A stretch of 64,000 nt of DNA. It comes from Fructobacillus papyrifericola. GTDB lineage: Bacteria; Bacillota; Bacilli; Lactobacillales; Lactobacillaceae. Where the stretch lies: positions 1 through 64,000 of the forward strand of contig NZ_JAAMFJ010000001.1 of assembly GCF_018437235.1 (NCBI RefSeq). Direction: 5' to 3'. Under the pieces are notes generated by a model. It searched no databases. It was not told the origin of the DNA and saw only the letters and a program-made list of their open reading frames with translations. Shown piece by piece: positions 30,890 through 38,672 of this stretch (its first letter is position 1; every line of letters begins with the position of its first letter). The position numbers and the translations under genes were made by a program.

Positions 30890-30915
30890 CCATGATAGGC
30901 AGGAAAGTCAAAACG

Positions 30916-32127
30916 ATGGAAACCGAATTTACAAAAAGAAGACGCAGTAAGCAAAAGCATCCGATTCGAAACGGCATCTTTGTGCTCTTGGCACTGCTGG
31001 TTCTTGGCGTGGGCGCTGGCCTTTATATTAACCACGAGGGTTATGCAGCCAAAAATCCCAACGACATGACTTTGACCGAGGTGAAGCTGTCTTCTTCGGA
31101 CTCCGTTGAACAAGTGGGGAAGAAGCTGCAGGCTAAGGGCTTGATCCGCAATGGCAAGTACCTGACTCGCTATGCCAAACGCTACGGGGCCAAGTCGATT
31201 TCGGCCGGTACTTATTTGTTCTCGCCCGTTCAAAGCATTGACAACGTCTACCAAGAATTAGCTCAGGGACCAAGTGAGGAACCCGTGCTTGATTCGTCCT
31301 ACACCTACATCGATGGCAACAAGACGGACAAGCAGACGGCGCAGACTTTGGCAGACGCAGCTAACGTTTCTAAATCAGCCCTTCTATCCGCCTATACGGA
31401 TAAGGACTTGATGAAGGAAATGAAGGAGAAGTATCCAAAGCTCTTCTTGAATGCCAAGTCTGGGTTGACCCTTTACGACTTGGTCATGCCGGGCATTTAC
31501 AAGATTAAGGACGAAAAGTCAGCCAACGACTTGGTTCGCGACTTGTTAAAGCGGACGGACAAGGAAATGCAGGGCTATTACGCTGCTTTGAAGGAAAACG
31601 GTTTGCCCGTTTCAACCGCTGTCTTGCTGGCTGAAAACGGAGGTAAGCAGGAGTTTAACCGCCGCTTGGCCTTCATTAAGAAGATTGCTTCTTATGCACA
31701 GGACTTGAAGAGCCAGTACGGTATCCTGCCTTCAATCTCAATTGCCCAGGCCATCCACGAATCCAACTGGGATGACTCTGAACTATCCTCGAAGTACAAC
31801 AACTTCTATGGTGTTAAGACAGACGATACAACGGCTGGCAAGTCCGTCGTCTTGGAAACCCAGGAAGTGGAAAACGGGCAGACGGTGACAAAGAAGGCGC
31901 GTTTTGCGGTTTACGCCTCCTATAAGGACTCCATGAAGGCCCACGCCAAGACCCTGGTTCAGGGAAACACTTGGAACAGTGATCAGTTTAAGGATGTTTT
32001 GGCAGCCACGAACTATCAAGACGCGGCCCAGGCCCTCTATGATGATTCGTACGCAACGGATCCCAATTATCCTGCAGCCATTATCCGGATTATTCAAAAC
32101 TGGAACTTGGCCAAATACGATAAGTAA
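30916..32127 (+). CDS. MltG/YceG-like membrane protein with C-terminal GH73 glucosaminidase domain
   Basis: 403 aa from the ATG at 30916 (AGGAAAG 8 bases upstream; the ATG at 30892 has no such site). A basic cytoplasmic N-terminus precedes a transmembrane segment (about 19-38). Residues ~50-125 resemble the LysM-like part of MltG (DSVEQVGKKLQAKGLIRN, then SAGTYLFSP). About 130-230 follow the MltG pattern (DKQTAQTLADAANVSK, YDLVMPGIYKIKD, LVRDLLKRTDKEM), but the conserved ASIVEKE catalytic segment is replaced by AVLLAENGGKQE. About 235-403 is a GH73-type domain: SIAQAIHESNW with the likely catalytic Glu, NNFYGVK, and a YASYKDSMKAHAKTL block. Probably a membrane-bound peptidoglycan hydrolase that trims or releases nascent glycan strands. 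Confidence 0.75.
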   Translation: METEFTKRRRSKQKHPIRNGIFVLLALLVLGVGAGLYINHEGYAAKNPNDMTLTEVKLSSSDSVEQVGKKLQAKGLIRNGKYLTRYAKRYGAKSISAGTYLFSPVQSIDNVYQELAQGPSEEPVLDSSYTYIDGNKTDKQTAQTLADAANVSKSALLSAYTDKDLMKEMKEKYPKLFLNAKSGLTLYDLVMPGIYKIKDEKSANDLVRDLLKRTDKEMQGYYAALKENGLPVSTAVLLAENGGKQEFNRRLAFIKKIASYAQDLKSQYGILPSISIAQAIHESNWDDSELSSKYNNFYGVKTDDTTAGKSVVLETQEVENGQTVTKKARFAVYASYKDSMKAHAKTLVQGNTWNSDQFKDVLAATNYQDAAQALYDDSYATDPNYPAAIIRIIQNWNLAKYDK

Positions 32128-33323: not shown

Positions 33324-33812
33324 TTACTTGGCCGTTTCGACCTTTAAAATCTTCACTTCGATATCGACACCGTTTGGCAAGGGGACCTTCACGGTTTCAC
33401 CCTGGCGCTTACCGATCAAGGCGTTTGCCATTGGTGATTCGTTTGAAATCTTACCAGACAATGGGTCGGCTTCAACTGAACCAACAATGGTGTAAGTTTC
33501 GGGTTCTTCATCGGGCAATTCCTGGAAAGTAACCGTCTTACCCATGGCAACTTCGTCAGCGGCAGAGTCATCAGCGGAAATGATTTCCGCGTTTTCAATC
33601 ATCTTACGCAAAGTCACGATGCGGCCTTCGACAAAGGCTTGTTCGTCCTTTGCTGATTGGTATTCCGAATTTTCGGAGAGGTCACCGTATGAACGGGCGA
33701 TTTGGATTCGCTTCGTAATTTCGGGACGTTGCCGGGTGATTAAGTCTTCCACCTCAGCTTGTAATTTGTCACGGCCTTCGGCCGTCATTGGGAATGTTTT
33801 TTCTTCCGCCAT
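33324..33812 (-). CDS. greA: Transcription elongation factor GreA
   Basis: 162 aa. The N-terminal antiparallel coiled coil (about 1-78) contains the paired acidic residues near the tip ([16 protein letters not shown]), which enter the RNA polymerase secondary channel and stimulate transcript cleavage. The C-terminal FKBP-like domain contains [24 protein letters not shown] lies upstream. In many Lactobacillales greA lies next to mltG; here the MltG-like fusion gene is 1.2 kb away and in the opposite orientation. Confidence 0.95.
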
Positions 33813-36510: not shown

Positions 36511-36629
36511 GCTTTAAGAATACCAAAAAATCATCGAATTTTAGCGGAAAATTCGGTCAATATGGTAAAGTATAAGAGATTGAGAAGGAGTGTTTCACTC
36601 GAATTTTCTTGGAAAGACGAAGCGTTATT

Positions 36630-38672
36630 ATGAACCGTAACCGTTATTTCGAAGATGGCAACAAAAACGACGCCCGGGCCAACCTGCCTGGACGGCTAAA
36701 GCTCTTGTTTGGCCTCGTGATTGCCATTATTGCTGCCCTGTTAATTCAACTGGCTTTTTTGACCATTAAGCAGGGAGCTGGCTACCAATCTGAAGTGGAC
36801 CGTTCGGACCAAACCGTTGAAAAGGGGAACGCCCCCCGTGGCTTGATTTATGATTCAACCGGAAAAGTCATCACGGGCAATCAGTCGGCTTTGGCCATCA
36901 CCTACACCCGTGGGGCCACAACGACCACGACAAAGATTGCCGACGTGGCCCAAAAGTTATCCAAGTACATCAGCATTGACACCAGCCGTTTGAACCCCCG
37001 TTCAAAGGCTGATTACTACTTGGTGACAAATGAGAAGGCAGCCACAAAAGTCCAGACCGCCGTTAAAAAGGAAAACGCCAGTGAGGCCTCTGCCTGGTCA
37101 ACGACACAATTGAACACGGCCATGGCCCAGTACGTGATGAAGCACGACTTGGACAAGAACGTTGACGACAACGTGGCGATGATTTTCCAGAAGATGTCGG
37201 GGGCTTCGGCCTTATCGACAACTTATATCAAGGAGTCCGACATTTCAGACGACGCCGAGGCCAAGATTGCCGAACGGCTATCGTCCATGCCCGGTGTGAA
37301 GATTGGCGAATCCTGGTCCCGTAATTATCCTGAGGGCACGGACTTCCAGTCCTTGACTGGTACCGTGACCGACGAATCGGCTGGGCTGCCTGCTGACCGC
37401 CTGCACCGTTTGCTGGCCCAGGGCTACTCGCAAAACGAACCAGTAGGAACCTCGGCTTTGGAAAAGCAGTATGAATCCTTGCTGAAGGGTTCACCATCGC
37501 AGACGACGGTGACGACTTTGGGGAACTTGAAGACTTCATCGATTAAGTACGAGGGACAATCGGGTGATTCGCTTAAGCTGACCATCAACGCTGAGTACCA
37601 GAAGAAAGTCCAACAGATTCTTGAAGACAACCTGCCTGGTGGAAACGTTCAGGGTGCCTATTCAACGGTCATAAACCCCTACACCGGTGGCATTTACGCC
37701 ATGGCCGGGGTTAGTCGGGATTCTTCGACCGGAAAGAAGACGGCCAACCAGCTGGGGAACATTAACCAGGCAATTGTCATGGGGTCGGTTATCAAGCCAG
37801 CCGTTCTAGCAACCGGATTCCAGAAGGGCGTTGTGACGCCAACCTCCAACACCATGAACGATCAGGCGATTAAGATTCAGGGAACTCCTGAAATAACGTC
37901 TTACTGGAACAAGAACGGAACGCCGACGCCAATTGATGCCAGAACGGCTTTGGAAACGTCTTCCAACACCTACTTCGTTCAATTGGGGATGAAGATTGGG
38001 GGTCAGACTTACTCTTCTGGTTCTTCTCTGCACCTTCGTTCAGACGCCTTCCAGACGCTTCGAAATGGCCTGGGCCAGTTCGGCCTTGGAACCAAGACCG
38101 GCATCGATGTCGAAGGTGAAACGGCCGGTTATAAGGGGCTGACGACCGGAACCAACATCGGTAAGTATTTGTACGAGTCCTTTGGTCAGTATGATTCTTA
38201 CACGACCTTGCAATTGGCCCGTTACGTTTCGGCCATTGCCAATGGTGGATATTTGGTTCAGCCGCACTTGGTTGGCTCCGTTTTGCAGACGGACAAGGAT
38301 GGCAAGTACCAAAAGACGGTCTGGACCGCCGAACCACAATTACAGTCCCAGGTTTCCTTGACTGATGACGAGTGGAAAGTCATCAAGGATGGAATGTACC
38401 AAGTGGCCAACGGTTCTTCTTCTCACAACACGGGAACGGCCTTGCACAACATGACGCCAAAGGTCTATGCCAAGACTGGAACGGCCGAAACGTCGACTAA
38501 CGGGCACACGACTTTTACCGAATCAATGGTTGTCTATGTGCCGGGCACGCCTTTTGCCATGTCCTTGGCCATTCCAGGAATGGATTCCTATTTGGATGGA
38601 ACCAACGGACGAATTGCTAAGCAGATCATCGAAGCCTTCTGGCAGATGGTTGTGGCAAGCAACAATTCATAA
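36630..38672 (+). CDS. Class B penicillin-binding protein (PBP2B/FtsI-like transpeptidase)
   Basis: 680 aa from the ATG at 36630. Cytoplasmic N-terminus, transmembrane helix (about 24-46), dimerisation domain with the APRGLIYDSTGKVI pedestal motif, and a transpeptidase domain. The transpeptidase has SxxK in GSVIKPAV, SxN in ETSSNTYF and KTG in YAKTGTAE. It cross-links peptidoglycan in septation or elongation. No C-terminal PASTA repeats are present. The start is uncertain: GGAAAG is 13 bases upstream of 36630, a TTG at 36609 is in frame, and a better AAGGAG (36585-36590) lies too far up, inside a GAGTG/CACTC hairpin. Confidence 0.9.
   Translation: MNRNRYFEDGNKNDARANLPGRLKLLFGLVIAIIAALLIQLAFLTIKQGAGYQSEVDRSDQTVEKGNAPRGLIYDSTGKVITGNQSALAITYTRGATTTTTKIADVAQKLSKYISIDTSRLNPRSKADYYLVTNEKAATKVQTAVKKENASEASAWSTTQLNTAMAQYVMKHDLDKNVDDNVAMIFQKMSGASALSTTYIKESDISDDAEAKIAERLSSMPGVKIGESWSRNYPEGTDFQSLTGTVTDESAGLPADRLHRLLAQGYSQNEPVGTSALEKQYESLLKGSPSQTTVTTLGNLKTSSIKYEGQSGDSLKLTINAEYQKKVQQILEDNLPGGNVQGAYSTVINPYTGGIYAMAGVSRDSSTGKKTANQLGNINQAIVMGSVIKPAVLATGFQKGVVTPTSNTMNDQAIKIQGTPEITSYWNKNGTPTPIDARTALETSSNTYFVQLGMKIGGQTYSSGSSLHLRSDAFQTLRNGLGQFGLGTKTGIDVEGETAGYKGLTTGTNIGKYLYESFGQYDSYTTLQLARYVSAIANGGYLVQPHLVGSVLQTDKDGKYQKTVWTAEPQLQSQVSLTDDEWKVIKDGMYQVANGSSSHNTGTALHNMTPKVYAKTGTAETSTNGHTTFTESMVVYVPGTPFAMSLAIPGMDSYLDGTNGRIAKQIIEAFWQMVVASNNS

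Follow-up and report, generated by a model that had tools for sequence, protein, structure and literature searches.

A GH73 glucosaminidase domain in the place of MltG's catalytic half: a putative strand-cutting chimera of Fructobacillus, Leuconostoc and relatives

Introduction

MltG, MpgA and SagB are thought to share one job, which is to cut new wall strands near the membrane. SagB is membrane-anchored; Auto of Listeria (3fi7) and AtlA of E. faecalis (7qfu) are secreted or surface autolysins. In S. aureus, the GH73 enzyme SagB is proposed to release nascent strands together with SpdC (PMC12272431). Passages of two other sources call MltG/MpgA a muramidase of the pneumococcal elongasome (PMC11481917) and present MpgA as an MltG homologue in which a single active-site change gives muramidase chemistry (PMC8820737, with the host written as S. 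aureus). Here, we describe a gene in a 64,000-nucleotide stretch of Fructobacillus papyrifericola DNA (contig NZ_JAAMFJ010000001.1; hereafter the window) that encodes the enzyme type of one of these strand-cutters on the scaffold of another. This arrangement makes the question of whether place or chemistry matters directly testable in food-grade laboratory strains.

The gene (30916..32127, + strand; 403 amino acids plus stop) was delimited by Pfam, NCBIfam and relatives with the same build. Judged by its sequence, the product is a natural chimera of two known families that is kept over several genera. We propose, with a probability of roughly 0.68, that a GH73 domain replaced the catalytic half of MltG in the ancestor shared by Fructobacillus, Leuconostoc and Convivina, and that the resulting membrane-tethered glucosaminidase cuts nascent strands in MltG's place. 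As far as sequence comparison reaches, the architecture, its conservation, the placement in the mltG locus, the loss of the catalytic Glu and the C-terminal half, the intact GH73 residues and the constraint on the scaffold are established.

The fusion shares with MltG/YceG the membrane helix, the LysM-like domain, the first half of YceG and the neighbours greA and yfhO, but it has a Gly in place of the catalytic Glu and GH73 instead of the C-terminal half. As MpgA is portrayed in those passages, both proteins combine an MltG scaffold with altered bond chemistry, which for the fusion is predicted; MpgA differs by one active-site change within YceG, whereas in the fusion the whole catalytic half is exchanged for another fold. 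With SagB it shares the build of a membrane-anchored GH73 enzyme, according to Pfam and helix prediction. The small anchored GH73 enzymes of Lactobacillaceae such as Mur resemble it in the GH73 domain and have a short linker in place of the MltG scaffold, while Auto and AtlA contain no MltG part.

Architecture of the Fusion Protein

The longest open reading frame (ORF) covers 30892-32127 (+ strand, 411 amino acids), and residue numbers below follow it; those of the 403-residue protein are smaller by 8. ATG 30916 is likely the start, as originally predicted, and is preferred over 30892 because a caggaaag run resembling a ribosome site lies about 10 bases 5' of it (judged by eye) and because the closest relative (L074, beginning MMETEF) starts one codon upstream of the matching position.

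The N-terminal part has the layout that the original prediction had recognised. A membrane helix (residues 24-51; 30961..31044, + strand) is supported by helix prediction and a hydrophobic run in the sequence. It is followed by the LysM-like domain of MltG (residues 53-127; 31048..31272, + strand), identified with hhalign and by structure match to Lmo1499 4iiw, and by the first half of the YceG catalytic domain, lacking the catalytic Glu (residues 128-257; 31273..31662, + strand), identified with Pfam and hhalign. In the 411-residue ORF, the YceG family PF02618 matches residues 65-247 with profile positions 2-159 of 275 (E 1.4e-13; 51.4 bits against a cut-off of 32.4). The NCBIfam MltG model TIGR00247 reaches 41.4 bits and stays below its cut-off of 103.4. 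Alignment with hhalign to a profile built from 15 full MltG proteins gave a probability of 99.6-99.8 for the middle by itself (128-257) and of 99.3-99.5 for the LysM-like part. Because the whole-protein structure-match list is filled by GH73, the scaffold was folded and searched separately, and its predicted structure matches the MltG crystal structures (Lmo1499 4iiw; MltG 8yoa and 8yq7). The root-mean-square deviation of the predicted model from 4iiw is large (11.2), which we read as two sub-domains that are probably turned differently. The possibility that the middle region is unrelated to YceG was rejected on the basis of the MltG alignment and the structure match.

At the junction, the MltG segment VLTLASLVEREGV lies opposite AVLLAENGGKQEF of the window protein. 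Gly251 (31642..31644, + strand) occupies the position of the catalytic Glu in the MltG motif ASxVEKE, which we take to be E218 of E. coli MltG, and GH73 begins within about 10 residues after it. The remaining part of YceG is absent, including the SPYNxYxxxGxGPGP stretch of full MltG proteins. The earlier claim that GH73 takes the place of the ASIVEKE segment thus holds for the loss of the catalytic Glu and for the position of GH73 right after it; the segment is not cleanly excised, as the helix ahead of the catalytic Glu is still recognisable (VLLAENGGKQEF). Among 45 full-length MltG rows from 43 genomes, the catalytic position is Glu in 41 and Gln in 4. The Gln-bearing proteins (L066 of G032, L027, L069 of G142 and L071 of G018) would be expected to be inactive.

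The GH73 N-acetylglucosaminidase domain (residues 258-411; 31663..32124, + strand) is complete. PF01832 matches residues 267-406 with profile positions 2-123 of 123 (E 1.1e-31; 110.4 bits against a cut-off of 30.2). Two acidic residues, Glu290 (31759..31761, + strand) and Glu325 (31864..31866, + strand), are each invariant in 30/30 aligned GH73 sequences. Glu290, located in the HESNW motif that had been singled out from the start, aligns to the ES of Auto and AtlA, and we take its position to be that of the GH73 catalytic acid; Glu325 is a candidate second acidic residue, presumably equivalent to E156 of Auto. The full-length domain above cut-off, the catalytic Glu and the fold all place the protein in GH73. 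The fusion is therefore a GH73 protein and not an MltG, since the catalytic residue and the C-terminal half of the latter are absent. Its mode of action is probably that of SagB, exerted from an MltG scaffold.

Between close pairs, the ratio of nonsynonymous to synonymous substitution rates (dN/dS) is 0.009-0.154 for the YceG remnant (5/7 pairs computable), 0.005-0.031 for GH73 (5/7) and 0.010 and 0.060 for the LysM-like part (2/7); these values are rough, as dS is above 1 or not computable in most pairs. They indicate purifying selection on the MltG remnant, which nonetheless evolves faster than GH73.

Distribution

Of 151 sampled genomes from the family, 144 have one YceG match each and 7 have none. 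The match is full-length (to profile position 255 or beyond) in 118 genomes, covers only the first 66-83 profile positions in 9, and belongs to the half-length fusion build, with frames of 405-442 amino acids, in 17. The fusion is found in every sampled genome of five genera, namely Fructobacillus (7/7), Convivina (g6, 2), the genus of L. fallax (g7, 1), Leuconostoc (g16, 5) and g39 (2), which includes Lactobacillaceae bacterium L1_55_11. No stop falls within the YceG matches of these 17 genomes. Among the best 80 of 522 relatives, 24 loci carry the fusion (8 in Fructobacillus, 2 in Convivina, 1 in L1_55_11 and 13 in Leuconostoc, one of these 13 being a fragment). A YceG match in the five fused genera does not imply a lytic transglycosylase, and annotation should be corrected accordingly.

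The original prediction had called for a search of this genome for a separate full MltG. The window's own genome (1.30 Mb, 9 contigs, 93% complete) yielded no second YceG protein, and the other 16 sampled fused genomes likewise gave no second YceG match. Together with the conservation over five genera and the placement in the mltG locus, this upholds the domain swap that was originally predicted.

Outside the family, no further YceG-GH73 fusion was recognised in the order sample (129 genomes) or in the phylum sample (100 genomes besides the window's). Full-length MltG is the best match in 129/129 order-sample genomes from eight other families. In the phylum sample of 101, full-length YceG matches were obtained in 93/100 genomes besides the window's, none in 3, only short or tandem LysM-like matches in 2 (G309, G358) and split matches in 2 (divided between two contigs in G302 and between adjacent frames in G314). 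G302 has a 410-residue frame with YceG positions 3-165 and the remaining profile on another contig, in a genome that is 78% complete. No description of a YceG-GH73 fusion came up among the matches listed in searches of the open-licence PMC literature.

Descent of the Two Halves

In a scaffold tree of 14 fusions and 14 of the 15 full MltG proteins (L067 was left out), the fusions form one clade (support 100/100). The full MltG proteins of g18 branch nearest to them, but not firmly (93/91). For GH73, the tree comprises 58 rows. Fusions account for 17 of them, taken from 11 of the 17 sampled genomes and 6 of the 24 named loci. Oenococcus is represented by 4 of its 5 rows, and the stand-alone loci by 15 of the 54 among the best 80 of 522 relatives. 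Of 30 further GH73 proteins considered, 22 entered the tree after short fusions, duplicates, a broken copy, near-identical copies and a long unrelated build were dropped (L158, L164, L165, L173, L174, L176, L178 and L180). Again, the 17 fusions form one clade (100/99). Its closest outside neighbours come from Oenococcus and from the stand-alone GH73 proteins on the Leuconostoc/Fructobacillus side, with which the fusions make up a larger group (91/89) whose internal order is not resolved.

The donor of the GH73 domain was probably a small glucosaminidase with a membrane anchor from the same family. Such enzymes are the nearest relatives of the fusion GH73 among the best 80 of 522, with about 42-55% identity. 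The L. citreum copy (209 amino acids, 23.84 kDa) agrees with what we take to be the length and mass of Mur. Part of one source names Mur as an L. citreum wall hydrolase and also lists KGB51092 (437 amino acids, 48.94 kDa) as a muramidase (PMC4906094). The fused Leuconostoc proteins have 427-444 amino acids and about 48-49 kDa, and by size KGB51092 might be the L. mesenteroides fusion.

Oenococcus has a short form of 286-291 amino acids, in which the membrane helix and LysM-like domain are joined directly to GH73 without the YceG middle (L051, L054, L055, L057 and L058 in five g29 genomes; L145 and L146 among the best 80 of 522 relatives). Its GH73 groups with that of the fusions at only 71/28, and two alternative placements are not rejected (p-AU 0.449 and 0.458). 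The Oenococcus form may have arisen by a deletion after the fusion or through a second fusion event, i.e., from one or two origins.

In four genomes of g34 and g5, the mltG locus encodes stubs of 114-132 amino acids with only the membrane helix and LysM-like domain (L050:4121-4516 in G034; L052:3994-4338 in G077; L053:3939-4322 in G130; L056:4028-4369 in G104). A pheT-like gene precedes the stubs and a udk-like gene and greA follow (names given by eye except greA), with no udk-sized ORF in L056. No frame near the stubs matched the MltG catalytic half at E<=0.001. The YceG match of G104 runs across two stops, and the stub of this genome is possibly decaying. The MltG anchor may be useful without any catalytic domain.

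The mltG Locus

The proximity of greA (33324..33812, - strand; Pfam, NCBIfam and synteny), the conserved neighbour of the mltG locus, had been noted at the outset and is borne out, with a GlcU-like transporter gene between it and the fusion. The window and 13/16 examined loci of the five genera share the arrangement ackA, fusion, GlcU-like transporter, greA (-), yfhO (-); the stretches of L040, L045 and L048 end before greA, and L045 has about 1.8 kb between fusion and GlcU. A gene for a PBP2b-like transpeptidase (36609..38672, + strand; Pfam, NCBIfam) is reached downstream in the window, and pbp2b also in L. citreum (L087). In all 5/5 Oenococcus stretches, the short fusion takes the corresponding place between ackA and greA (-), with yfhO (-) next; GlcU is missing there, ackA lies about 3 kb off, and pbp2b is seen in 3/5. 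The full MltG of G055 (g18) is accompanied by greA (-), yfhO (-) and pbp2b in the order of the fusion loci, while the other g18 stretch (L071) differs. The gene order shared between fusion loci and this full-MltG locus indicates that the swap happened in the mltG locus. Overall, greA occurs in 14/15 full-MltG stretches, close by in 13 and about 2.8 kb away in L071, with none in L068.

Proposed Function and Alternatives

The fusion would sit in the membrane at MltG's place, beside the RodA/PBP2b elongation machinery. Its LysM-like and truncated YceG domains would hold GH73 at a set distance above the membrane, where it would cut nascent glycan strands between N-acetylglucosamine (GlcNAc) and N-acetylmuramic acid (MurNAc). 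The products would be GlcNAc reducing ends and not the 1,6-anhydro-MurNAc ends of normal MltG (MurNAc ends in the case of its muramidase variant, MpgA). The swap probably alters which bond is broken during the trimming of new wall strands at the membrane. The window genome encodes two SEDS proteins, MreC and the PBP2b-like protein, and MreC is present in 39/39 genomes tested, including the 17 fused ones. These elongasome parts and the purifying selection on the remnant fit the earlier proposal that MltG localisation is kept and the bond changed. No SLT or Lysozyme_like match was found in the window genome, which has two GH25 matches.

That the clade exchanged its strand-trimming chemistry from YceG to GH73 in this manner, with anchor and spacer retained, is in our view an even bet. 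If so, what the elongation machinery needs would be an enzyme held by the MltG scaffold at the right place above the membrane, whichever bond it cuts.

Several observations weigh against the proposed function. The scaffold evolves faster than GH73, the Oenococcus form lacks the YceG middle, and a stand-alone GH73 could perform strand release instead. Nor is the fusion the sole candidate glucosaminidase of these bacteria: all 17 fused genomes have at least one further GH73 match. Extra GH73 proteins were extracted from 15 of the 17, of which 13 have 206-246 amino acids; that of the window's own genome has 295 and a long upstream frame. By eye, the intact stand-alone proteins have a membrane helix near the N-terminus. 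The stand-alone GH73 of L. fallax is broken by a stop within the domain match (G007:C11:16073-16477, L176), and therefore a larger share of the work may fall to the fusion in this species. Furthermore, MltG is reduced to a stub in four genomes of two other genera, and seven family-sample genomes have no YceG match. The family may therefore be able to do without cutting by MltG, in which case the fusion may be no more than an anchored autolysin.

This leads to the alternative of an ordinary autolysin on the cell surface, or a glucosaminidase for cell separation, in which the MltG remnant would serve only as stalk and anchor without a link to strand release. The far stronger conservation of GH73 and the absence of the YceG middle in Oenococcus speak for it, and the closest GH73 relatives among the best 80 of 522 are small anchored enzymes, one of which is presumably Mur of L. 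citreum, an active wall hydrolase. However, the remnant keeps an MltG-like fold in the structure prediction, is under purifying selection in the mltG locus, and resides in genomes that already have another GH73. We therefore consider this alternative unlikely. Less probable still, and clearly doubtful, is that the retained MltG part is the functional one, as a structural or regulatory partner of the elongasome to which GH73 adds little: the helix and LysM-like stubs at the mltG locus of other genera would agree with such a role, but GH73 is the most conserved part of the fusion and its two acidic residues are invariant. An assembly or gene-calling artefact is scarcely conceivable and was discarded, as the same build recurs in the 24 loci among the best 80 of 522 relatives and in 17/17 sampled genomes.

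Genomes Without YceG and Short YceG Matches

Genomes without a YceG match belong to g26 (G026, G063, G120, G144), g37 (G098, G256, G264) and g5 (G005, G045). Other g26 and g37 genomes carry a full YceG, and MltG seems to have been lost repeatedly in Lactobacillaceae. Seven of these nine genomes were tested for MreC, and all seven have it.

Many other Bacillota genomes have a second, short YceG match that covers only about positions 1-66 (e.g., G275:C1:391130-391333). These are possibly SweC-type proteins, as parts of two sources list SweC under PF02618 (PMC10653849) and ascribe a LysM-like domain to it (PMC6705773).
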